From a virus, in the IMG/VR virus record IMGVR_UViG_3300042519_001962, positions 1 to 64,000 of that record: 64,000 bases of DNA; one strand, written 5' to 3'. The notes beneath the pieces were generated by a model, which saw nothing but the letters and a program-made list of their open reading frames with translations, was not told where the DNA came from and did no database searches. The translations under genes and the position numbers were made by a program. Below, in pieces: positions 25,043 through 45,876 of this stretch. How positions within the stretch are numbered: the first letter of the stretch is position 1; each line of letters opens with the position of its first letter.

Positions 25043-25072
25043 GCTATCTTAAATTAAATTATTAATATTTTG

Positions 25073-25158
25073 CGGAAAGAGTAGGATTCGAACCCACGAT
25101 ACCTTTCAGTATGCCGGTTTTCAAGACCGGTGCAATCGACCAACTCTGCCATCTTTCC
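25073..25158 (-). tRNA. tRNA-Ser(UGA)
   Basis: 86 nt with a long variable arm. The anticodon loop CTTGAAA gives UGA. Acceptor GGAAAGA pairs with TCTTTCC, discriminator G. CCA is not encoded (GCAAA follows). Confidence 0.92.
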
Positions 25159-25165
25159 TCTTTTG

Positions 25166-25237
25166 TAGTCCCACCGGGAATCGAACCCGACTTTTCAGGA
25201 TGAAAACCTGATGACCTAACCGATAGTCGATAGGACC
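25166..25237 (-). tRNA. tRNA-Glu(UUC)
   Basis: 72 nt. Loop TTTTCAT in a CAGG/CCTG stem gives UUC; acceptor GGTCCTA pairs with TGGGACT; discriminator A. This is the tRNA whose charged form is the substrate of glutamyl-tRNA reductase, also encoded here. CCA not encoded. Confidence 0.92.
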
Positions 25238-25379
25238 ATATAAATGTGAGCCAAACTTATGTACTTAGTGGGTGTACTCCGTTTATACTACTCTCACATT
25301 CAAATCAGTAGTGTGATGTTAATGGTTGAAAGATATTTACCTTCCTTTCGGCCTACCATCGTGGCCCATGCGTTTGTGG

Positions 25380-25452
25380 AGCGAATAGCAGGAATCGAAC
25401 CTGCATCTCCAACTTGGAAGGATGGAGTAATAAGCCATTATACGATATTCGC
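25380..25452 (-). tRNA. tRNA-Gly(UCC)
   Basis: 73 nt. Loop CTTCCAA gives UCC; acceptor GCGAATA pairs with TATTCGC. It is the only tRNA here followed directly by CCA. One T-T mismatch is in the anticodon stem. Confidence 0.9.
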
Positions 25453-25708
25453 TTATATACGATGAGAATACTCGTTTTAATGAACCAGCTTTATAAGGGT
25501 TATTGGTTGCCTTAATTTCCACTTCCTTTTGAGAAGTACCAATTCAATGTGGGTAAGTAATGTCCTACCACTCATAAAGTTACAAACTACTCTCTTTGTA
25601 GTCCACCTCTTCGAATCTGCCGACCCGATTAACACCTCGCGATGCTAGAAGTTTTTCGAAAGAATCACATTTCCCTTGAGAGGATTTGTGGCAGGGAACA
25701 GCTCCCTA

Positions 25709-26305
25709 CTATGTACACACCTTTCGTCTGCAACTGGTAACCTCTTTCTCTAGTTTGTTTTTTGATTTTGCGTCAATAGGCAAATTGAGTTTTGGTTTGT
25801 AGATAAATTCAAGTAGTGGATTACCACTAGCTCCGCCCCATTTTGAAGAACGGAATACTATACTACTCGATACGTTATCTCTAACGTCATACTTTAAGAT
25901 TACTTCAGTACCCACTCTTTGGTGAGAGGTAGGTAAGGATGATAACAACACCACTTGTACTTCATCATACCTTTCGGTTTTAAGTAACCTTTAATATTGA
26001 ATCACGCAATGATAAGGAGAGATTAAGTCCTCACTTCTTGCATTAATTCTATGGGTTATTTTTATTGGTGTTCCCACCTCAACTGAAGTATCTACAATAC
26101 CCCAGTCATCATTCCATTTCGCTACGGAGTTACCCTCACTACATTCAGGAACAATGATATCCCACTTGCCTACTCAAGCTCCATCCGAAGATGAAACCGC
26201 AAACCCCTCTAAACCAAAGAGATTCACTTTATCCTACTTTCGTAGTTTATTTAACGACCATAGGCGGCCGTTATACACTATGTAGAACAAGTCTACTATG
26301 TGCAA
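25709..26305 (-). pseudogene. Decayed gene with three in-frame stops
   Basis: One reading frame looks protein-like throughout but carries TAG (26234-26236), TGA (26174-26176) and TAA (25991-25993). Pieces such as KWNDDWGIVDTSVEVG and VGTEVILKYDVRDNVSSS read like a beta-rich protein. The last open part (25709-25954) could still make 81 residues. No suppressor tRNA is in the array. It is most simply a decayed gene, but a chance frame cannot be ruled out. Confidence 0.4.
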
Positions 26306-26319
26306 TATTTTCAATACTT

Positions 26320-26328
26320 TCAAAGAAC
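26320..26328 (-). promoter_or_regulatory. BoxA-like antitermination element
   Basis: GTTCTTTGA shortly downstream of a promoter. The same 9-mer recurs at 28564, 29027 and 31142, each time ahead of a stable RNA. Confidence 0.55.
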
Positions 26329-26341
26329 TAATTTTCTTTTT

Positions 26342-26373
26342 CAAAGATACGAATAATTTTTCAATTATCCTAA
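26342..26373 (-). promoter_or_regulatory. Promoter in the tRNA array
   Basis: TTAG-N20-TATCTTTG followed by a BoxA-like element. It would serve the spacer, tRNA-Gly, tRNA-Glu and tRNA-Ser. Confidence 0.7.
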
Positions 26374-26407
26374 TCTTTTTTTAATTATTTTTCAATAATT
26401 TATTTAG

Positions 26408-26480
26408 TTGCGGGAGAGGGAATCGAACCCCCGACCTCAAGGTTATGAGCCTTGCGAGCTACCGCTGCTACTATCCCGCT
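26408..26480 (-). tRNA. tRNA-Met(CAU), initiator-like
   Basis: 73 nt. Loop CTCATAA gives CAU. The first base pair is A1-A72, unpaired as in initiator tRNAs, and the GGTAGCTCG segment is typical of tRNA-fMet, but the anticodon stem lacks the three G-C pairs of initiators. Initiator status is therefore tentative. Confidence 0.75.
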
Positions 26481-26529
26481 ATATATGTTTAAGAACTTAA
26501 TTTTCAACTTCTATGTATATAAGTATATA

Positions 26530-26561
26530 CAAATATACCAAAACGTAAAAAAAATCGAAAA
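26530..26561 (-). promoter_or_regulatory. Possible promoter before tRNA-Met
   Basis: A perfect TATATTTG box with only TTTT at the expected -33 position. Confidence 0.4.
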
Positions 26562-26581
26562 ATAATTTAATTTTTTTATTG

Positions 26582-26655
26582 TGGACCAGAATGGATTCGA
26601 ACCATTGACCTACGCATTATGAGTGCGGTGCTCTAACCAACTGAGCTACAAGTCC
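26582..26655 (-). tRNA. tRNA-Met(CAU) or tRNA-Ile2
   Basis: 74 nt, canonical D and T arms, loop CTCATAA with CAU anticodon. Elongator Met or lysidine-modified Ile cannot be told apart by eye. Confidence 0.88.
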
Positions 26656-26790
26656 AAAACGAGAGAGGGTTCGGGTCTTTCAAGGTTTCTGATTAAGTGC
26701 AATGAGTGACGTCTTTCTACTATAAACCTTTTTTCGAAAATTAATACACTCTACCTCTTAATTACAGCTTCACTCCCTCTCTATTTTTTA

Positions 26791-26976
26791 CTACTTTGCG
26801 TCTGCTTCAGTAGTAATTTCTGCTACAGTTGAATCAGTTGCGATTACAGCTGATGAATCCGTTGCTACTGCAGTTGAGTCTGTTGTTGACGTTTCTGTGT
26901 TTGATTGTTTGTTTCCACAAGATGCCATAACTACCGTTACTGCTACTACTGTTAAAATTGCCATTACTTTTTTCAT
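26791..26976 (-). CDS. Small lipoprotein, 61 aa
   Basis: MKKVMAILTVVAVTVVMASC is a lipoprotein signal with the acylated Cys at residue 20 (lipobox VMAS-C), followed by a Ser/Thr/Asp-rich mature part. The Met at 26976 is used because it starts the signal peptide. A phage lipoprotein on the cell surface could serve superinfection exclusion. It is isolated within the tRNA array. Confidence 0.75.
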   Translation of the reverse strand: MKKVMAILTVVAVTVVMASCGNKQSNTETSTTDSTAVATDSSAVIATDSTVAEITTEADAK

Positions 26977-27034
26977 AACTTTTGTTTTAATTGTTTTAAA
27001 TTGATAAATAAACATAGGAACCTACCTATATTTG

Positions 27035-27129
27035 TAATCATAATTGGATTCGAACCAATTCCAGCTTTACAATAAAGAACCTTTCGATTCAACCTTTGTG
27101 AGGTGCCGCCAACCAATGGCCTTATGATT
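27035..27129 (-). tRNA. tRNA-like gene, broken anticodon arm
   Basis: 95 nt. The acceptor (AATCATA with TATGATT), D arm and T arm are complete, but the region between them contains hairpins GAATC-GAAA-GGTTC and CTTTA-TTG-TAAAG in place of a normal anticodon stem. An intron, an unusual type II tRNA or a pseudo-tRNA are all possible. It starts about 10 bases after its own promoter. Confidence 0.55.
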
Positions 27130-27145
27130 ATTTAAATGAACTATA

Positions 27146-27177
27146 CAAATATACGAAATGTTTTTCACAATTCCAAA
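27146..27177 (-). promoter_or_regulatory. Promoter in the tRNA array
   Basis: TTTG-N20-TATATTTG, 17 bases ahead of the tRNA-like gene at 27035-27129. Confidence 0.75.
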
Positions 27178-27197
27178 TATTTTTTCATTTATTTTTG

Positions 27198-27271
27198 TGG
27201 AGGATATCGGAGTCGAACCGATGACCCCCTGCGTGCAAGGCAGGTGCTCTAGCCAGCTGAGCTAATCCCCC
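27198..27271 (-). tRNA. tRNA-Ala(UGC)
   Basis: 74 nt. Loop CTTGCAC gives UGC; acceptor GGGGGAT pairs with ATCCTCC (one G-U). CCA not encoded. Confidence 0.93.
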
Positions 27272-27274
27272 ATT

Positions 27275-27366
27275 AATCACATCGTACCGGCATTCTGGTT
27301 CTCGCTAACAGAAATTCCATCTCATTTAACCCAGTCTGTGCGATGTGGGTACCGGAGGATGTGATT
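27275..27366 (-). repeat. Inverted repeat enclosing a tRNA spacer
   Basis: AATCACATC (27275-27283) and GATGTGATT (27358-27366) are perfect complements, with a second pair of CCGG boxes just inside. The spacer RNA between tRNA-Ala and the tRNA-like element could fold as one long stem for processing. Confidence 0.5.
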
Positions 27367-27368
27367 TG

Positions 27369-27447
27369 TAGTCAGAGCCGGATTCGAACCGGATAAGCAA
27401 CCACTTTATTGGATTCGGGAACCGTCCCTCATTACGCCCATCTGACC
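27369..27447 (-). tRNA. tRNA-like gene, degenerate anticodon arm
   Basis: 79 nt. Acceptor GGTCAGA pairs with TCTGACT and the T arm is good. The best anticodon arm (AATCC/TGGTT) has a mismatch and a loop AATAAAG without the universal T33, so no anticodon is assigned. Probably a tRNA relic or a processing decoy. Confidence 0.5.
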
Positions 27448-27522
27448 ATTTTAAACATCCAGTCTGACCTTCCAGACAGTACAAGTCGGTATTAATTTCA
27501 CGTGCCGTTTTGTAGTGAATGT

Positions 27523-27765
27523 TTAATATCCTATTTGTTCTTTAATCTCCCATTGCTTTTCAATAGAAATTCTTTCAATTCTCTCTACTGGTACAAACCC
27601 ATCCAATCCCTTATCTTTAACATCTTCAAAATGTTCGATAGTATCTAAACGAAATCCGAACTTATATCTGATGTATTGGAACTTTTCACCATCCCAATAT
27701 GCAGTATGGTTATTTCTGCAAAATCCATTGTACCAACCTTCTTTCATTTCAATTTTTGGTATCAT
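27523..27765 (-). CDS. Hypothetical protein, 80 aa
   Basis: Trp/Tyr-rich N-terminal half (EGWYNGFCRNNHTAYWDGE) that could be a small beta domain, and a charged helical C-terminus. It lies between two tRNA genes. Function unknown. Confidence 0.65.
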   Translation of the reverse strand: MIPKIEMKEGWYNGFCRNNHTAYWDGEKFQYIRYKFGFRLDTIEHFEDVKDKGLDGFVPVERIERISIEKQWEIKEQIGY

Positions 27766-27779
27766 ACTTTTTGTTTTAG

Positions 27780-27853
27780 TGAACCCATCAGGAATCGAAC
27801 CTGAAACCTACACATTAGAAGTGTGTTGCTCTATCCAATTGAGCTATGGGTCC
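27780..27853 (-). tRNA. tRNA-Arg(UCU)
   Basis: 74 nt. Loop CTTCTAA gives UCU; acceptor GGACCCA pairs with TGGGTTC. Confidence 0.93.
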
Positions 27854-28067
27854 AAATTCACACTCTATTTTATCCAACTACAAGTGTGGTGGTTGTCCCC
27901 ATAGCGGGCCCATTGGGCCTTTGATTGGGTTAGGAATAAACCAATTAAACTCTTTCGGAGCAGATGGTTAATCTGGATAGAGCCTTTCCCTATCAGAAGT
28001 CCCATATGGCCATCACACCACTTCTCATCATATTGGACATACTATCCGTTGTATGTTACGGAACGTG

Positions 28068-28139
28068 CGGTCTCACCGGGAATCGAACCCGGCATACCGC
28101 CGTGACAGGGCGGCGTTATAGCCGATTAACTATGGGACC
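28068..28139 (-). tRNA. tRNA-Asp(GUC)
   Basis: 72 nt. Loop CTGTCAC in a CCGCC/GGCGG stem gives GUC. Discriminator G. Confidence 0.93.
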
Positions 28140-28225
28140 AAAAGTGATAGGTGACCCTCCTATCGTGAAATGATATATCATTTCTTTTCTTTATAGAATC
28201 CGAAGATACTGTAGGAACATTTTTG

Positions 28226-28298
28226 AGCCTCCGGTCGGGCTCGAACCAACCACCTGCTGATTACAAATCAGCTGCTCTACCAAATGAGCTACGGAGGC
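28226..28298 (-). tRNA. tRNA-Thr(UGU)
   Basis: 73 nt. Loop TTTGTAA in a GCTGA/TCAGC stem gives UGU; acceptor GCCTCCG pairs with CGGAGGC. Confidence 0.93.
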
Positions 28299-28459
28299 AA
28301 AATTAGGAAAGCTACCTGATATCTTTACAGCCGAATTAGGTACGGATTTCTACATTTAGAATGTTCCTCAAATTCAAACCCCTTTTATGTCCGTACTATG
28401 TGGAGGATAAAAAACCACATTAGTTGATAAAAAATGAATTCTTCACCTCTTTCCTATTG

Positions 28460-28544
28460 TACCGATGGGCGGACTCGAACCGCCACGAGCATTACTACCC
28501 AAGGGATTTTAAGTCCCTCGTGTCTACCATTTCACCACATCGGC
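28460..28544 (-). tRNA. tRNA-Leu(UAA)
   Basis: 85 nt with a variable arm. Loop CTTAAAA gives UAA. It is the first RNA behind promoter 28596-28627 and its BoxA-like element. Confidence 0.92.
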
Positions 28545-28563
28545 ATTTTAGATTTTCAACATG

Positions 28564-28572
28564 TCAAAGAAC
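28564..28572 (-). promoter_or_regulatory. BoxA-like antitermination element
   Basis: GTTCTTTGA between promoter 28596-28627 and tRNA-Leu(UAA). Confidence 0.55.
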
Positions 28573-28595
28573 AAAACTGTCTCTCTTTTACTATG

Positions 28596-28627
28596 TAAAG
28601 ATACAACATAATTTTGAATTATACAAG
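28596..28627 (-). promoter_or_regulatory. Promoter in the tRNA array
   Basis: CTTG-N20-TATCTTTA immediately downstream of the tmRNA 3' end; it starts a new tRNA transcript. Confidence 0.8.
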
Positions 28628-28654
28628 CTTTTTTAAAAACTTTTATAATTTTTG

Positions 28655-29021
28655 TGGAGGTGGCGAGAGTCGAACTCGCGTCCAAATACGGATTTAATAA
28701 ACATCATTCACAAGCTTAGTACATTTTTCTTAATGTACAAAATAGATAAAGATTTATACATTCATTATCATTAATGTTTCCAACTCGATTTCGGGTTCAG
28801 TTGGGTTCCACCTGAGTTCACATTCTATTTTAAGTCCCACGATGTGTGCGGGAGGGATTATGCTGCTACAGCGTAATCGGCACCAACGAAAGACATAGCA
28901 TCTTCGAAGGTCATTGTAGATAATTCTACTGCGTTTATTGTTCGATAGGTATTTACGGATTTCCATCTAACCCGGCTTGCAACTTACCAATTCATCGTAC
29001 CTGTCAAAACCAGGCACCCCC
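28655..29021 (-). ncRNA. ssrA: Transfer-messenger RNA
   Basis: A one-piece tmRNA of 367 nt. The 5' end GGGGGTGCCTGGTTTTGACA and the 3' end with GTTCGACTCTCGCCACCTCC form the tRNA-like domain (GGGGGTG with CACCTCC). An open tag (28861-28926) is preceded by AGTA, reads Glu-Leu-Ser-Thr at the resume point and ends DYAVAA before TAA (28858-28860). The tag is 22 residues, longer than the usual 8-15, and the AVAA end is close to the ALAA degradation signal. tmRNA with SmpB rescues stalled ribosomes and tags the product. The CCA is not encoded. It has its own promoter and a BoxA-like leader. Confidence 0.93.
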
Positions 29022-29026
29022 ATAAA

Positions 29027-29035
29027 TCAAAGAAC
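29027..29035 (-). promoter_or_regulatory. BoxA-like antitermination element
   Basis: GTTCTTTGA six bases before the mature tmRNA end. Confidence 0.55.
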
Positions 29036-29053
29036 TTATCTTTTTTGATACTT

Positions 29054-29085
29054 CAAATATACAAAATCTTTTTGGTATTTCCAAA
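29054..29085 (-). promoter_or_regulatory. ssrA: Promoter of tmRNA
   Basis: TTTG-N20-TATATTTG, about 26 bases upstream of the tmRNA start. Confidence 0.82.
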
Positions 29086-29104
29086 TTTAATTTCAATTAT
29101 TTTG

Positions 29105-29178
29105 TGACCCCGAATGGATTCGAACCATTGACTCCCTCATTAAAAGTGAGGTGCTCTAACCAACTGAGCTACGAGGTC
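29105..29178 (-). tRNA. tRNA-Lys(UUU)
   Basis: 74 nt. Loop CTTTTAA in a CTCA/TGAG stem gives UUU; acceptor GACCTCG pairs with CGGGGTC. Confidence 0.93.
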
Positions 29179-29184
29179 ATTCTG

Positions 29185-29254
29185 AGGTTAAGGTTGGAAT
29201 CGAACCAACTCCGTAGATTTTGCAGACCTACCGGCCTCCAAGACCATCCTAACC
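29185..29254 (-). tRNA. tRNA-Cys(GCA)
   Basis: 70 nt. Loop CTGCAAA in a TAGGT/ATCTA stem gives GCA; acceptor GGTTAGG pairs with CTTAACC; discriminator T. Confidence 0.9.
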
Positions 29255-29258
29255 ATTC

Positions 29259-29711
29259 CTATCTACAAGTGTAATCTGCTGCCCTTGTTGCGATTTGCAT
29301 ATCAGGTTTAAGATTAACTTCATATCCTAATGAGTTTGCCCAACCCTTTGTAGATTGTACTAACTTAGAAGAGTAATGCTTTTCATTTAAGTTGTAATCT
29401 AAATCAATCTGAATAGTTACACCTAAGTTACTCCTTAACCATTCAGCCACTTCAATAGAATATTCAGTTTCTTTCCACAATCTTGTCCACTTATCTAAAA
29501 TCTTATCTACTTTTAGTTTGTGATTAATATAGTGTACACCTGTATTACCATACCTATACGCAATTACAATTGAATATGATGTACAATCTGATAAGTTTTG
29601 AGAATCACACCCAATATGAATATCCGCATGTGGACATTCTTTTAATATATCAATCGTATGTTGTACGATATCTACCACTTCCCCATTTACTTTTCTAAAA
29701 ACTTTTACCAT
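29259..29711 (-). CDS. RNase H-like protein, YkuK/DUF458 type
   Basis: 150 aa. IHIGCDSQ near residue 32, YSIVIAYRY, IQIDLDYN and a C-terminal ATRAADYTCR fit the YkuK-like (DUF458) branch of the RNase H fold, with Asp residues on the first and fourth strands. It is embedded between tRNA-Cys and tRNA-Phe, so an RNA-processing or RNA-degrading role is tempting, but the family has no proven activity. Confidence 0.75.
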   Translation of the reverse strand: MVKVFRKVNGEVVDIVQHTIDILKECPHADIHIGCDSQNLSDCTSYSIVIAYRYGNTGVHYINHKLKVDKILDKWTRLWKETEYSIEVAEWLRSNLGVTIQIDLDYNLNEKHYSSKLVQSTKGWANSLGYEVNLKPDMQIATRAADYTCR

Positions 29712-29737
29712 TACTATTAATATTAATTATTAAATTG

Positions 29738-29810
29738 TGGAGGTGAGTGGAATCGAACCACTTCCTCTGGATTTTCAGTCCAGCGCTTCTACCAAGTTAG
29801 CTTCACCTCC
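29738..29810 (-). tRNA. tRNA-Phe(GAA)
   Basis: 73 nt. Loop CTGAAAA in a CTGGA/TCCAG stem gives GAA; acceptor GGAGGTG pairs with CACCTCC. Confidence 0.93.
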
Positions 29811-29815
29811 TTTTG

Positions 29816-29886
29816 CACGGGTAGAAAGATTCGAACTTCCATCTAAGCTTTTGGAGAGCCGTATGCTACCATTGCACCATACCCGT
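29816..29886 (-). tRNA. tRNA-Trp(CCA)
   Basis: 71 nt. Loop CTCCAAA gives CCA; acceptor ACGGGTA pairs with TACCCGT; discriminator G as in bacterial tRNA-Trp. Confidence 0.92.
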
Positions 29887-29892
29887 ATTTTG

Positions 29893-29964
29893 TACACTTA
29901 GAGAGATTCGAACTCCCATTATCCGGTTCGTAGCCGGAGGTTCTATCCGTTGAACTATAAGTGC
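29893..29964 (-). tRNA. tRNA-Arg(ACG)
   Basis: 72 nt. Loop CTACGAA in a TCCGG/CCGGA stem gives ACG, which needs A-to-I editing by host TadA to read all CGN codons. Confidence 0.93.
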
Positions 29965-29968
29965 ATTG

Positions 29969-30050
29969 TACCCAAGGAGAGACTCGAACTCTCAAGCCTT
30001 TCGGCCACGGTTTCTAAGACCGCTGTGTCTACCAATTCCACCACTCGGGC
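29969..30050 (-). tRNA. tRNA-Leu(UAG)
   Basis: 82 nt with a variable arm. Loop CTTAGAA gives UAG; acceptor GCCCGAG pairs with CTTGGGT. Confidence 0.93.
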
Positions 30051-30057
30051 ATTGTTG

Positions 30058-30131
30058 GGTGATTAATGGGATTCGAACCCATCCTATCAGAATCACAATC
30101 TGACGTGCTAACCGCTAACACTATAAACACC
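30058..30131 (-). tRNA. tRNA-His(GUG)
   Basis: 74 nt including the extra G-1 paired with C73. Loop TTGTGAT gives GUG. One T-T mismatch is in the acceptor stem. Confidence 0.9.
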
Positions 30132-30198
30132 ATGTTGTGTATAATATATTATCCATTTACCCCATATATCTGAGTTTTATATAATATATTGTACATTG

Positions 30199-30268
30199 TT
30201 GTGTGTATGAGGTTCGAACTCATTTGGTCATCCTTATGAGAGATAACTCTTTTCCACTAAGCCACACA
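30199..30268 (-). tRNA. tRNA-Met/Ile(CAU), short
   Basis: 70 nt with loop CTCATAA. The D arm is weak and the last acceptor pair is G-A, so this third CAU tRNA may be an Ile2 species or a declining copy. Confidence 0.7.
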
Positions 30269-30456
30269 ATTTAAAAGAAGTATAACCAGAATTTTGTGTA
30301 AACCTATCATTTGTCTTTTTGCCCCAACCTTGTCCGAATTGCTCACCTTCATAGACTATTTTGGGTTGCATCCTCAGTAGTAAAACGAATTTCTTCTCCT
30401 ACTTTAAGCAATGATGTTCTGAGTTTCCTCTCCGTAGAGCGATAGGAACTTCTTTG

Positions 30457-30544
30457 CGGAGAGTATAGGATTCGAACCTATGGAACCCTTACGAGTTCAA
30501 CACCTTAGCAGGGTGCCGCTTTAAACCAACTCAGCCAACTATCC
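30457..30544 (-). tRNA. tRNA-Ser(GCU)
   Basis: 88 nt with a long variable arm. Loop CTGCTAA in a CACC/GGTG stem gives GCU. One acceptor mismatch. Confidence 0.9.
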
Positions 30545-30549
30545 AATTG

Positions 30550-30623
30550 TTGGTAATATAGGAATCGAACCTATAACCTTTCGCGTATCAGGCGAATGCT
30601 CTAACCAATTGAGCTAATTACCA
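30550..30623 (-). tRNA. tRNA-Ile(GAU)
   Basis: 74 nt. Loop CTGATAC in a TTCGC/GCGAA stem gives GAU; acceptor TGGTAAT pairs with ATTACCA. Confidence 0.93.
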
Positions 30624-30701
30624 ATAAGTTGCAGGATATCGCTTAACCTGCGGTGTTGATATCATTACACACCTTTGATGTTACCACCAGCGATTTTTTT
30701 G

Positions 30702-30785
30702 TGGGAGCAGAAGGATTCGAACCTACTACCTATGCGGGTTACCAGATTTACAGTCTGGCGCCTAACCAATTCGTGCGTTACTCCC
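30702..30785 (-). tRNA. tRNA-Tyr(GUA)
   Basis: 84 nt with a long variable arm. Loop CTGTAAA in a CCAGA/TCTGG stem gives GUA. Confidence 0.93.
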
Positions 30786-30891
30786 AATGGCGTTCCATAT
30801 TACTCACATCTGATAACCATATTGGGTTACCCACTTAATCTTACAACAGCTTTAAACTGAGAGATTGTAAGAATGTGTATGGAACATTTTG

Positions 30892-30965
30892 TAGAAGATA
30901 TAGGATTCGAACCTATGACCCTTTGGATGTAAACCAAATGCTCTAACCAACTGAGCTAATCTTCT
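30892..30965 (-). tRNA. tRNA-Val(UAC)
   Basis: 74 nt. Loop TTTACAT in a TTTGG/CCAAA stem gives UAC; acceptor AGAAGAT pairs with ATCTTCT. Confidence 0.92.
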
Positions 30966-30970
30966 ATTTG

Positions 30971-31046
30971 TCTAGATGGTAGGATTCGAACCTACGTGCT
31001 CTCGCGTCCAAGGCGAGCGAGAAAAACCTGACTCCTCTACATCTAG
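30971..31046 (-). tRNA. tRNA-Pro(UGG)
   Basis: 76 nt. Loop CTTGGAC in a CTCGC/GCGAG stem gives UGG. The D loop is T-rich and unusual. Confidence 0.9.
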
Positions 31047-31052
31047 TTATTG

Positions 31053-31123
31053 TTATCCCTCGAGGACTCGAACCTCGACTGCCTGAATCAAAGTCAGGTG
31101 TCCTGCCATTAGACCAAAGGATA
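31053..31123 (-). tRNA. tRNA-Gln(UUG)
   Basis: 71 nt. Loop CTTTGAT in a CCTGA/TCAGG stem gives UUG; acceptor TATCCTT pairs with AGGGATA. Confidence 0.92.
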
Positions 31124-31141
31124 ATTTGTGTTACCAATATT

Positions 31142-31150
31142 TCAAAGAAC
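31142..31150 (-). promoter_or_regulatory. BoxA-like antitermination element
   Basis: GTTCTTTGA between tRNA-Asn and tRNA-Gln, without a visible promoter of its own. Confidence 0.5.
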
Positions 31151-31160
31151 TATACTTTTG

Positions 31161-31232
31161 CGGGGAGGGAGAATTTCGAAATCTCGACCTGATGATTAAC
31201 AGTCATCTGCTCTTCCTCTGAGCTACCACCCC
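31161..31232 (-). tRNA. tRNA-Asn(GUU)
   Basis: 72 nt. Loop CTGTTAA in a GATGA/TCATC stem gives GUU. One acceptor T-T mismatch. It lies only 5 bases beyond the T run of a terminator, so its transcription requires read-through or antitermination. Confidence 0.9.
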
Positions 31233-34133: not shown

Positions 34134-35066
34134 TTAGTTCATTCCTTTGTACAATTGAGGTGCTGTTCCATAAACAGGTAACTTACCATCCCATTTGTTA
34201 ATCCACTCTAATTGTAATAACAATGGTGTTAATGTAACTTGCTTCATTCTATTTGCTTCAGCTTCAGCTTTTGCTGCGGTTAACATTGCCTGAGCGTTAC
34301 CATTTGCGGTTGCTACTTTGATTTTTGCCTGTGCTTCTGCGGTTTTAACTTCATTCTCTGCTCTCAGTGCTGATTGAACTGCGTTGTTCTTAGCTTCAAT
34401 TGAACGTTTGAATGTTTCAGGATATATTAAGTTAGATGTGAATTGATTGATAACAAATCCCTCTTTTAATAACTGAGCATCTAACAATCTACGAACTTCA
34501 ATTTCGAATATTGCTCTATTACTAATCAACTCATCAGCCGTATATTTATTGGTTGCCAAACGGAATGCATCATACACTGCCGTTTTTAAGAAACCTTCTT
34601 CAATATCTTCCAATGGTCTACGATACTTAGCGAAGATTGCCGGAACTTTATCCCTTTGTACTGAATAGTTCATAATTGGTGATACTGAAAATTCAGAACC
34701 ATCTTTTGAGTTTACAATAAATGAATTGTCAACATCTTCAGTTTTCTTATACTCTTTGTGCTGAATGAATGTTGGAAACTCATACACCTTAGTTGTGATT
34801 GGATTGTAAAATACCATACCAGTAACTGCCGTTACATCATCAACTCCTTTGTTATCACCATACTGATTAACTTTTACACCAACGTGCCCAGCATCAATTC
34901 TTTCACACGATTGTGATAATACTGCTAATCCAATAAATACTCCTACTCCGATTAAAATTCTCTTTACCATTTGTTTAATTTTTAATTGTTTATTTAATTT
35001 TTCTTGTTCTATTAATTGTTCTTGTTCTGGTGATAATCTATTACCCCATCTGTCATAACTTGCCAT
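34134..35066 (-). CDS. SPFH/prohibitin-like membrane protein
   Basis: 310 aa. A membrane anchor (residues 36-52), then the SPFH domain (VKVNQYGDNKGVDDVTAVTG, TEDVDNSFIVNSKDGSEFSV) and a long Ala/Glu coiled coil near 225-285. Prohibitin/stomatin-type proteins build large rings at membranes and control proteases or membrane integrity. Their occurrence in a phage suggests protection of the host membrane or control of FtsH. It overlaps nothing and ends at a terminator. Confidence 0.85.
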   Translation of the reverse strand: MASYDRWGNRLSPEQEQLIEQEKLNKQLKIKQMVKRILIGVGVFIGLAVLSQSCERIDAGHVGVKVNQYGDNKGVDDVTAVTGMVFYNPITTKVYEFPTFIQHKEYKKTEDVDNSFIVNSKDGSEFSVSPIMNYSVQRDKVPAIFAKYRRPLEDIEEGFLKTAVYDAFRLATNKYTADELISNRAIFEIEVRRLLDAQLLKEGFVINQFTSNLIYPETFKRSIEAKNNAVQSALRAENEVKTAEAQAKIKVATANGNAQAMLTAAKAEAEANRMKQVTLTPLLLQLEWINKWDGKLPVYGTAPQLYKGMN

Positions 35067-35067
35067 A

Positions 35068-35409
35068 TTATTTTGTTGGTTTTGGTTTAGATGTTTTCAC
35101 AGTTGTACTGTGTGGTGGTAACGGATGTTCCGATTTAGTTACCTTTGGTTTACGTTTTGTTTTAGGTTTAGCGGCCATCTTAGCAGCTTCCTTTAATTCC
35201 TCTTTATCAACCAGTCCACCTTCATTTGATGTTATTAACTCTTTTAATTCCAATAAACCCCAGAATGATAATAATACTAAACCCACAAATCCTACGATGT
35301 TTAAAAGGGTATTAGCTGCTGTTAGTGCTGGAAAGATTCCATATGTTACCAATAAAAATATTGTAATAAAGGTAACGATTTGTTTTTGGTATTGCTTTAA
35401 CTTATTCAT
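35068..35409 (-). CDS. Membrane protein with basic tail, 113 aa
   Basis: Two hydrophobic spans (about residues 10-30 and 36-54) and a Lys/Pro-rich C-terminal tail (KPKTKRKPKVTK). It is directly upstream of the SPFH gene by one base and may be its partner in the membrane. Function unknown. Confidence 0.65.
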   Translation of the reverse strand: MNKLKQYQKQIVTFITIFLLVTYGIFPALTAANTLLNIVGFVGLVLLSFWGLLELKELITSNEGGLVDKEELKEAAKMAAKPKTKRKPKVTKSEHPLPPHSTTVKTSKPKPTK

Positions 35410-35460: not shown

Positions 35461-35850
35461 TTATTTATATTTTAATTTAACTCTATCTGAAATAGGAATG
35501 GGTTCGTTGCTTTCATCAATCCTTACAAATTTAATGTTAGTTGATAGGATTATGGTTTGCTGACCCGAATATACATTATGTGCTCTAGCTTCTAACATTA
35601 GAGTTAAAGAAGTATTCCCTATCTCCTTTACTCTTCCATATATTTTTAGAAGTTGCCCTTCTTTAGCGGGTCTTTTAAATAAACACTCATCAATTTTTAC
35701 AGTCACTATTCTGGGTGTATCACATACTTCCATTGCCATAGCGGCACCAGCAGCATCAATCCATGCTAAAAGTTTGCCACCAAATAGATTTGCATGAAAC
35801 CCCAAATCAGCTTTCTTAATTGGATGGGTTGATATTAGTTGCATTTCCAT
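35461..35850 (-). CDS. Hotdog-fold acyl-CoA thioesterase
   Basis: 129 aa. NLFGGKLLAWIDAAGAAMA is the active-site helix of YciA-type thioesterases (G-G-x-L-x-x-W-x-D). RIVTVKIDECLFKRPAKEG continues the fold. It hydrolyses acyl-CoA. It overlaps the 75-aa gene by one base. A lipid-metabolism gene in a phage is unusual; it might alter membrane lipids or CoA pools. Confidence 0.85.
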   Translation of the reverse strand: MEMQLISTHPIKKADLGFHANLFGGKLLAWIDAAGAAMAMEVCDTPRIVTVKIDECLFKRPAKEGQLLKIYGRVKEIGNTSLTLMLEARAHNVYSGQQTIILSTNIKFVRIDESNEPIPISDRVKLKYK

Positions 35851-39721: not shown

Positions 39722-41329
<1,608 letters not shown>

Positions 41330-41626
41330 TTATAATTTCATTAATAAATCCGAATCTCTAACAAGGTTATAACTAACCCCACCTAACTTAATTTTCTCAC
41401 CAGGAGTTCCATTTGATATTAATACTTTATCACCTTCATTTACTGATAATTTAATCCACTCACCACCTTGTGATGGGTATCCATCACTAACTGCAATTAC
41501 AACTGCTTCCACAACTGTTTGAGTTGATTGATTTAAGATGATACCACCAGATGATTTTTTATCTGAAGTATCTTCTAATTTTAAGAGAACTCTATCTCCT
41601 AATGGTTTTCCTACATTTTCTGCCAT
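41330..41626 (-). CDS. groS: Co-chaperonin GroES
   Basis: 98 aa with GDRVLLKLEDTSDKKSSGGI and the mobile loop, VVIAVSDGYPSQGGE and the C-terminal VSYNLVRDSDLLMKL. It forms the lid of GroEL. Sequence length is normal for bacterial GroES. Confidence 0.93.
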   Translation of the reverse strand: MAENVGKPLGDRVLLKLEDTSDKKSSGGIILNQSTQTVVEAVVIAVSDGYPSQGGEWIKLSVNEGDKVLISNGTPGEKIKLGGVSYNLVRDSDLLMKL

Positions 41627-44772: not shown

Positions 44773-45876
44773 TTAATTTGATAATGGTGCTTTGATTGCT
44801 GGATGTGATTGATAATTTTCAATTTCAAATTGCGCAATACTTTGGTATTCTATATCTATTCCTGTTATAGGACAAGGATTGAATTTTAGCGTAGGTAACT
44901 CAAATGGTTTTCTACTAATTTGTTCTTTTGCTTGTTCAATGTGATTTAAATACAAATGTGTATCACCTAAATTTCCAATCAATTCATCAGGTATCATATT
45001 TACTTCTTTAGCAATGATTTCTAATAACAATCCATAAGATGCTATGTTGAATGGTAAACCTAAGAATGTATCTACTGAGCGTTGATTCCACATTAATGAG
45101 ATTGCTCGAGTTGGAATACCCCAATCGTTCATTAATATCTCATTTGTATCAACATGAGCTGCAAACTTAGATTCTGGTCTTTGACCTAAACATACACCTA
45201 TTCTCTCTTCATGGCTCAACTCTCTCGTATAAACTTGAAATCCATAATGACAAGGTGGAAGAACCATTTGGTCTAATTCACCTACATTCCAAGCATTAAC
45301 CATTAATCGTCTTGAGTCTGGATTTGTTTTAAGGTCATTGATTAGGTTTTGTATTTGGTCTACACCACCTTTGTTAATCTCACCCGCTTCATGTGCCCAC
45401 TTCCTCCATTGCTTACCATAAATTGGTCCTAATTCACCGTATCTACTAGCAAACTCATCATCTAATTTAATTGTATATATAAATTCTTCTTGAGTCAAAA
45501 GTCTTATTTCATCCCCTACAACAAGTAGTAGTCTGTCATAAATCATATCATCTAAATCCCCAATGTCAGATTTTAACCACATCTTATCAACAGTATCAAC
45601 GTAGTTTTTATAGGCATCACCATTCCAAATGTTACAACCATTATCAACCAAATACTTAATATTAGTATCACCCTTCAAAAACCATAGTAATTCAGTTACA
45701 ATAGTTTTAAATGGCATCTTCTTAGTTGTTAGAAGTGGAAATCCATCTTTCATATTGTGTCTGATAGTATAACCAAATATTGACTTTGTGCCAGTACCAG
45801 TTCTATCTTTCTTATCAATACCATAATCTAAAATGGTTTGAAGTAAATCCTGATATTGTTTATCTATTTTATTCAT
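44773..45876 (-). CDS. thyA: Thymidylate synthase
   Basis: 367 aa. DRTGTGTKSIFG and the R-loop at residues 25-40, ELLWFLKGDTNIKYL, PDSRRLMVNAWNVGEL, then the active site LPPCHYGF with Cys209, RSVDTFLGLPFNIASYGLL and LGDTHLYLNH. It methylates dUMP to dTMP with methylene-tetrahydrofolate. It is longer than the usual 264-316 residues because of an insertion around residues 95-145 (MWLKSDIGDLDD onward). The downstream ORF context does not suggest dUMP hydroxymethylation. Confidence 0.95.
   Translation of the reverse strand: MNKIDKQYQDLLQTILDYGIDKKDRTGTGTKSIFGYTIRHNMKDGFPLLTTKKMPFKTIVTELLWFLKGDTNIKYLVDNGCNIWNGDAYKNYVDTVDKMWLKSDIGDLDDMIYDRLLLVVGDEIRLLTQEEFIYTIKLDDEFASRYGELGPIYGKQWRKWAHEAGEINKGGVDQIQNLINDLKTNPDSRRLMVNAWNVGELDQMVLPPCHYGFQVYTRELSHEERIGVCLGQRPESKFAAHVDTNEILMNDWGIPTRAISLMWNQRSVDTFLGLPFNIASYGLLLEIIAKEVNMIPDELIGNLGDTHLYLNHIEQAKEQISRKPFELPTLKFNPCPITGIDIEYQSIAQFEIENYQSHPAIKAPLSN

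Follow-up and report, generated by a model that had tools for sequence, protein, structure and literature searches.

Several described systems resemble the gene pair considered here. In SPFH-NfeD operons, for example E. coli QmcA-YbbJ (PDB 8z5g), the same two-gene unit is formed by an SPFH gene and a gene for a small multi-span membrane protein, while HflK/HflC, which are found with FtsH, have the same fold and a probable periplasmic SPFH domain. In phages, passages of a report on Kayvirus (PMC7150955) describe MbpV and MbpS as an adjacent small basic membrane protein and SPFH protein, and also link phage SPFH speculatively to secretion. Phage SPFH proteins are termed unexplained in a passage of another report (PMC13239085) and, according to excerpts of two others (PMC10892097, PMC6034870), were detected in phage preparations by mass spectrometry; the record of a Klebsiella jumbo phage likewise annotates such a detection for its SPFH protein. 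The two halves of the pair are known as separate families, phrog_200 (an SPFH 'lipoprotein') and phrog_1130 (a 'membrane protein'), and the output of the PHROG library states no link between them. No description of a hairpin-SPFH pair in phages of Gram-negative hosts or in Bacteroidota was seen in full-text searches of the open literature, with subscription papers and preprints lying outside that search. SPFH relatives as such were found by tblastn in 747 of 50,697 phage records, including those of Staphylococcus, Pseudomonas, Enterococcus, Klebsiella, Erwinia, E. coli and Halorubrum phages, which does not bear out the claim of an earlier note on this DNA that these proteins are uncommon in phages.

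The pair studied here lies in a window of 64,000 nucleotides, the whole stretch of DNA analysed, which is part of a virus contig of 146,548 bases. A stretch of the window is 100% identical over 12,930 bases to a contig of 270,865 bases (L002), and the genome is therefore considered to be jumbo-sized. A Bacteroidota host is likely for this phage because the closest named DNA matches of the window are short stretches of Flavobacterium phages. The window also carries one cluster of 25 tRNA genes together with a tmRNA (25072-31232; tag AVELSTMTFEDAMSFVGADYAVAA) and genes for a phage-encoded GroEL (533 aa) and GroES (98 aa) at 39722-41626. A thymidylate synthase ORF of 367 aa is found at 44773-45876, and its length, which exceeds the matched profile span (phrog_160, 29-307), suggests an insertion.

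The SPFH/Band_7 gene is located on the minus strand at 34134-35066 and encodes a protein of 310 aa. This consists of a charged N-tail of about 33 residues, one membrane span (residues ~34-52) ending in Ser-Cys54, an SPFH domain (56-247 by Pfam), a long C-terminal helix (217-291) and a C-terminal KWxGxLP motif (W292, G294 and P297). The protein was found to belong to Band_7 (Pfam, E 2.8e-21, 76.8 bits against a cut-off of 23.6) and to phrog_200 (PHROG profile, E 2.1e-66), and its best PDB match by sequence profile is prohibitin (2.9e-9, residues 53-264). A monomer structure predicted from alignment A2 (47 of 54 usable distinct rows) is of moderate confidence (pLDDT 71, pTM 0.46) and, at that confidence, displays the SPFH fold followed by the long helix. 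The best Foldseek matches of this model are human prohibitin structures (E 4e-11), so that the prohibitin complex (PDB 8rrh) is the best match by both sequence and fold, and the QmcA-YbbJ structure is also among the fold matches. Pfam, phrog_200 and the fold matches thus agree with the earlier reading of this product, a membrane protein of a large phage, as prohibitin-like (SPFH). A C-terminal motif of the KWxG(x)P type was observed in all 55 viral and in 58 of 68 chromosomal SPFH proteins, and KWDGK is kept in the eight listed of the other ten. Membership of the protein in HflK or HflC was considered and rejected on the NCBIfam equivalog cut-offs.

The partner gene is located at 35068-35409 on the same (minus) strand and encodes a protein of 113 aa with two hydrophobic spans (found, like all spans counted here, by simple hydropathy windows). 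The two genes meet at a TAA-T-ATG junction (35064-35070, minus strand) in which the stop codon of the hairpin gene is followed by one base and the SPFH start codon. From its basic N-terminus the protein runs through a helix (2-29), a tip with the sequence PALTAANT (27-34; codons for residues 27-35 at 35305-35331, minus strand) and a second helix (34-60) to a basic C-terminal tail with a net charge of +9, and the same protein is encoded in L002. These features confirm the description of the neighbour, which has two spans and a basic tail and is one base distant. In a structure predicted from alignment A3 (32 of 44 rows) both helices have a pLDDT of about 92-94 and the tail is of low confidence, and P27 and N37 of the tip are invariant in alignments A1 and A3.

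The hairpin protein matched no Pfam family above cut-off and no PHROG significantly; the phrog_1130 profile was not matched at E up to 1 and phrog_11110 not significantly. There was no match to PDB by fold (best E 1.6) or by profile (best E 1.5), and none in the phage collection by tblastn. An NfeD-type partner was rejected as its identity, as Pfam detected no NfeD/OB domain in it. A scan of sigma-70 promoters returned 12 compared with 18 in shuffles, and the promoter word TAnnTTTG was observed upstream of the hairpin in 6 of 44 relatives compared with 6% of random stretches. Directly upstream of the pair, a 4HBT thioesterase is encoded at 35461-35850; it belongs to phrog_18230, a family in which its function is unassigned.

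The earlier note had proposed a search for the pair in other phages. From the best 80 of 188 viral relatives of the SPFH protein we obtained 80 loci with 55 distinct proteins, and a two-span hairpin with the tip motif P-x-L-T-x-A-[ND]-T-x-x-N was observed just upstream of SPFH in 52 of the 54 evaluable loci (L024, cut by the contig end, was left out). The hairpin follows the tip-motif pattern in 44 of these, was recognised by the hairpin profile at ~1e-17 in L004 and L046, and is represented by a two-span ORF with a related tip that overlaps the SPFH start in L006, L022, L045, L051, L055 and L059. L017 and L018, the other two evaluable loci, have no hairpin upstream of SPFH; a GroEL ORF was seen in its place. 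In L077 there is a second ORF downstream of SPFH which, judged by eye, resembles another SPFH lipoprotein, an arrangement that recalls hflK-hflC. The P and N of the tip are invariant in the 44 pattern-positive hairpins and the L is present in 43, and the tails of 22 carry an ETE[LY]DY motif before the basic stretch.

Small membrane ORFs are common in phages (71 of 1,042 called genes are small two-span ORFs), and the neighbour could accordingly be unrelated to SPFH and linked to it by chance. A small two-span upstream neighbour was, however, found for 37 of 45 SPFH genes and for only 28 of 758 other genes (3.7%) in the same loci, as called by a naive gene caller, and the spacing of one base recurs in 27 of 44 relatives; the pairing is therefore not attributed to chance. 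The conserved tip and the HMM ranking described below also speak against a chance linkage, as does the converse search, which started from the hairpins of an E. coli prophage-type phage and of the window's clade and in which 59 of 62 viral hairpin loci (46 of the 62 being distinct) have SPFH next to the hairpin. We regard such a coincidence as hardly credible.

The three exceptions in the converse search comprise a spurious match of 21 residues (L160) and two true hairpins without SPFH (L162 and L168). L162 (2001-2450) is colinear with L074 apart from two gaps, one that removes SPFH between short shared words and another, short one further downstream; its hairpin is intact, so that this locus represents a natural knock-out. 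In L168 the hairpin is present and SPFH is absent from the 181-kb contig. The two proteins are therefore not strictly dependent on each other, and these loci, taken together with the linkage and the shared topology, suggest that the two proteins are partners and that a hairpin by itself is tolerated.

The clean loss of SPFH in L162 also bears on a role in lysis timing, where the hairpin would be holin-like and SPFH would be its antiholin or organiser. Such a role would suit a short two-span protein with a basic tail, and weak matches to holin PHROGs (0.03-0.1) were obtained; in passages of the Kayvirus report (PMC7150955) MbpV-MbpS are placed in the lysis region and MbpV is termed holin-like. 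The retention of an intact hairpin in L162 nevertheless argues against a holin/antiholin pair, and no holin family was matched above its curated cut-off. Moreover, the pair is chromosomal in free-living Bacteroidota, and in the stretches viewed from phages of Gram-negative hosts its neighbours are mostly small genes or genes of DNA metabolism, and only two crAss-like records have a peptidoglycan hydrolase close to the pair. A lysis role is thus considered very unlikely.

The pair was also observed in distant phages. Twenty-six phage records were chosen for diversity from among the 120 matches listed, and in 18 of the 21 from phages of Gram-negative hosts a two-span hairpin is found upstream of SPFH, often overlapping its start, with a tip of the L/M-x-S-x-x-[ND]-T type. 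These include P1-like, N4-like and crAss-like phages as well as Lak and Munch, and in five of the 18 (PVP-SE1, Mydo, K18PH07C1, Pae-1 and phiM6) at least one small gene lies between hairpin and SPFH. Three records were not counted among the 18, namely W_25, with another two-span ORF of weak motif, CcrSwift, with a multi-span ORF, and LoVE, with a borderline ORF of 51 aa. In the five records from Gram-positive or archaeal hosts (L096, L098, L100, L103 and L106) the SPFH proteins have no lipobox, and their neighbour is a small protein with one span, located upstream in three and downstream in two. When an HMM of the window-clade hairpin was used to rank 1,208 ORFs, which contained other two-span ORFs as a built-in control, the first ten were SPFH-upstream hairpins of distant phages and the first seven of these were above the inclusion threshold. 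Many hairpins of phages of Gram-negative hosts belong to phrog_1130, to which the window's hairpin is related through profile comparison only. Pairwise profile-profile comparisons with hhalign, made without a control set, gave probabilities of 85-93% in five of six group pairs, and the comparison between the window and chromosomal hairpins was weak at 14%.

In an E. coli prophage the pair is located between the regulators and xis-int, the position of an early operon in lambda. By analogy this early-operon position would suit a phage copy of the HflK/C role, in which the SPFH cage binds host FtsH and alters which membrane or regulatory proteins are degraded, and in which the hairpin may present or mimic an FtsH substrate. 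HflK/C is among the fold matches of the window's protein and, according to PMC12048511, surrounds FtsH in solved structures, and a suggestion published in PMC8540360 ties phage SPFH to HflKC and lysogeny. The scores are, however, far from the NCBIfam equivalog cut-offs (14.6 of 660 bits for HflK with the window's protein and 26.5 of 134.4 for HflC with that of Fraca), many carriers of the pair are lytic, and an FtsH gene was not noticed beside it. We therefore regard this role as an unlikely one, although it is kept as a live rival to the organiser role proposed below.

A scan of bacterial genomes yielded 73 loci. A small two-span ORF was observed directly upstream of SPFH in 50 of the 72 Bacteroidota loci examined, L244 being left out and several of the 72 being viral-looking MAG contigs (e.g. 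L172-L176, L215 and L240). Chromosomal carriers of the pair include Flavobacterium, Sphingobacterium, Empedobacter and Chitinophagaceae contigs, and at five chromosomal loci the neighbours are unrelated to each other and, except for one transposase, not mobile. At a strict threshold SPFH was found in 3 of 80 Bacteroidota genomes, two of which were already known carriers, and the chromosomal distribution is therefore patchy. On a tree the clade of the window, that of crAss/Lak and that of the Proteobacteria phages are separated by chromosomal rows, and the phage label has to change at least four times, which indicates several transfers. In one of the loci, L215 (3836-4786), the hairpin and SPFH form a single uninterrupted frame of 317 aa on a single metagenome contig. 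The viral, distant-phage and Bacteroidota loci together uphold the two-span neighbour as a true partner conserved far beyond this phage, and it is very nearly certain that hairpin and SPFH form a true conserved pair.

The presence of the pair in temperate phages and prophages, as well as patchily in Bacteroidota chromosomes, would also be expected if its role were superinfection exclusion or defence, with an envelope cage that blocks the entry of competitor genomes or counters host defences that act on membranes. The hairpin diverges far more than SPFH, as it would in an arms race: the median identities are 33% and 91% over 44 loci and are uncorrelated (r 0.07, 946 pairs), the latter value being inflated because the loci were chosen for SPFH similarity. 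This divergence may, however, reflect relaxed constraint on short spans, and the 'superinfection exclusion' gene beside the VEc25 pair is an annotation only. Neither gene matches a PADLOC family, and a known defence family was accordingly rejected for the pair. Exclusion, the other live rival, is considered quite improbable.

All 22 of the aligned SPFH proteins, a diverse set, share the cysteine that follows the N-terminal span, and outside the window's clade these proteins mostly look like lipoproteins. For example, ordinary lipoboxes are present in the SPFH proteins of P1-like phages, Munch, Pastis and crAssBcn2, where the N-termini of the P1-like, Munch and crAssBcn2 proteins read LTGC, LSGC or LSSC with D or E next. 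In the window's clade Cys54 is invariant, Ser or Ala precedes it in 54 of 54 proteins, position -3 is F in 49 of 54, and the site is preceded by a long N-tail. With this degenerate lipobox and charged tail lipidation is uncertain, and either a lipid or a plain span may serve as the anchor; some Chitinophagaceae and Bacteroides-type chromosomal relatives are without the cysteine, so that lipidation is not general. Either anchor would place the SPFH domain in the periplasm. The net charge is +5 before the span and 0 after it, and from this distribution and the lipoprotein-type N-termini of the relatives we consider it quite likely that the domain is on the periplasmic side of the inner membrane. 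The basic ends of the hairpin would similarly put its tip at the periplasmic side. In passages of PMC9872710 the Pasteurella prophage SPFH protein PM0222 is released in outer-membrane vesicles and signals via TLR1/2, which is consistent with a periplasmic lipoprotein. With the domain placed there by charge and N-termini, the suggestion in the earlier note that the protein shields a replication compartment fits poorly.

We favour an organiser of the inner membrane that guards or remodels it in infection. The two genes would act as one unit in which the SPFH protein, like prohibitin and HflK/C, builds a cage on the inner membrane and exposes its SPFH domain to the periplasm. Its anchor would be the N-terminal span or, in most relatives outside the window's clade, a lipid attached to the invariant cysteine. 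The two ends of the inserted hairpin would lie in the cytoplasm, and its conserved tip, exposed on the periplasmic side, may dock there with the SPFH ring; the hairpin would thereby provide the membrane-embedded part and, through its basic tail, the cytosolic part. A physical complex of the two proteins is fairly likely. Together, cage and hairpin could then mark out a patch of membrane by protein and in this way shield or remodel the inner membrane of the infected host. This account as a whole is our best explanation and is offered tentatively, at somewhat less than even confidence, and the membrane-guard purpose is its least certain part and is doubtful. The ring itself is predicted by likeness to the fold family.

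That many unrelated viruses, and some bacterial chromosomes, carry the pair points to a membrane machine that has been overlooked. It is conceivable, if improbable, that it represents a distinct unrecognised class of SPFH machine. In such a machine a periplasmic cage, often anchored by a lipid, would have a dedicated hairpin that diverges fast and serves as its membrane plug or specificity element; the pair would have been transferred on several occasions between Bacteroidota and diverse phages, which would use it to keep host membrane defences or competing phages out of a part of the inner membrane. The conserved partner makes the phage SPFH proteins a defined two-gene module that is present in P1-like and N4-like E. 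coli phages, and their role is therefore testable by standard genetics. For structural studies, too, the pair may be useful as a simple and minimal complex of SPFH and partner.

Each of the known systems differs from the pair in some respect. The hairpins here, at 55-130 aa, are without the OB domain of NfeD by Pfam, and the hairpin profile matches no PDB chain. In comparison with HflK/HflC, the SPFH protein falls below the equivalog cut-offs, has another partner and carries a lipoprotein-type anchor in most relatives outside the window's clade. The prohibitin match ends at residue 264 and leaves the KWxGxLP motif outside, and a hairpin is co-encoded here. The Kayvirus MbpV protein has one span and no tip motif, and MbpS is without a lipobox. 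The hairpin-SPFH pair is thus judged to belong with the known SPFH-partner operons, as a variant not described before.
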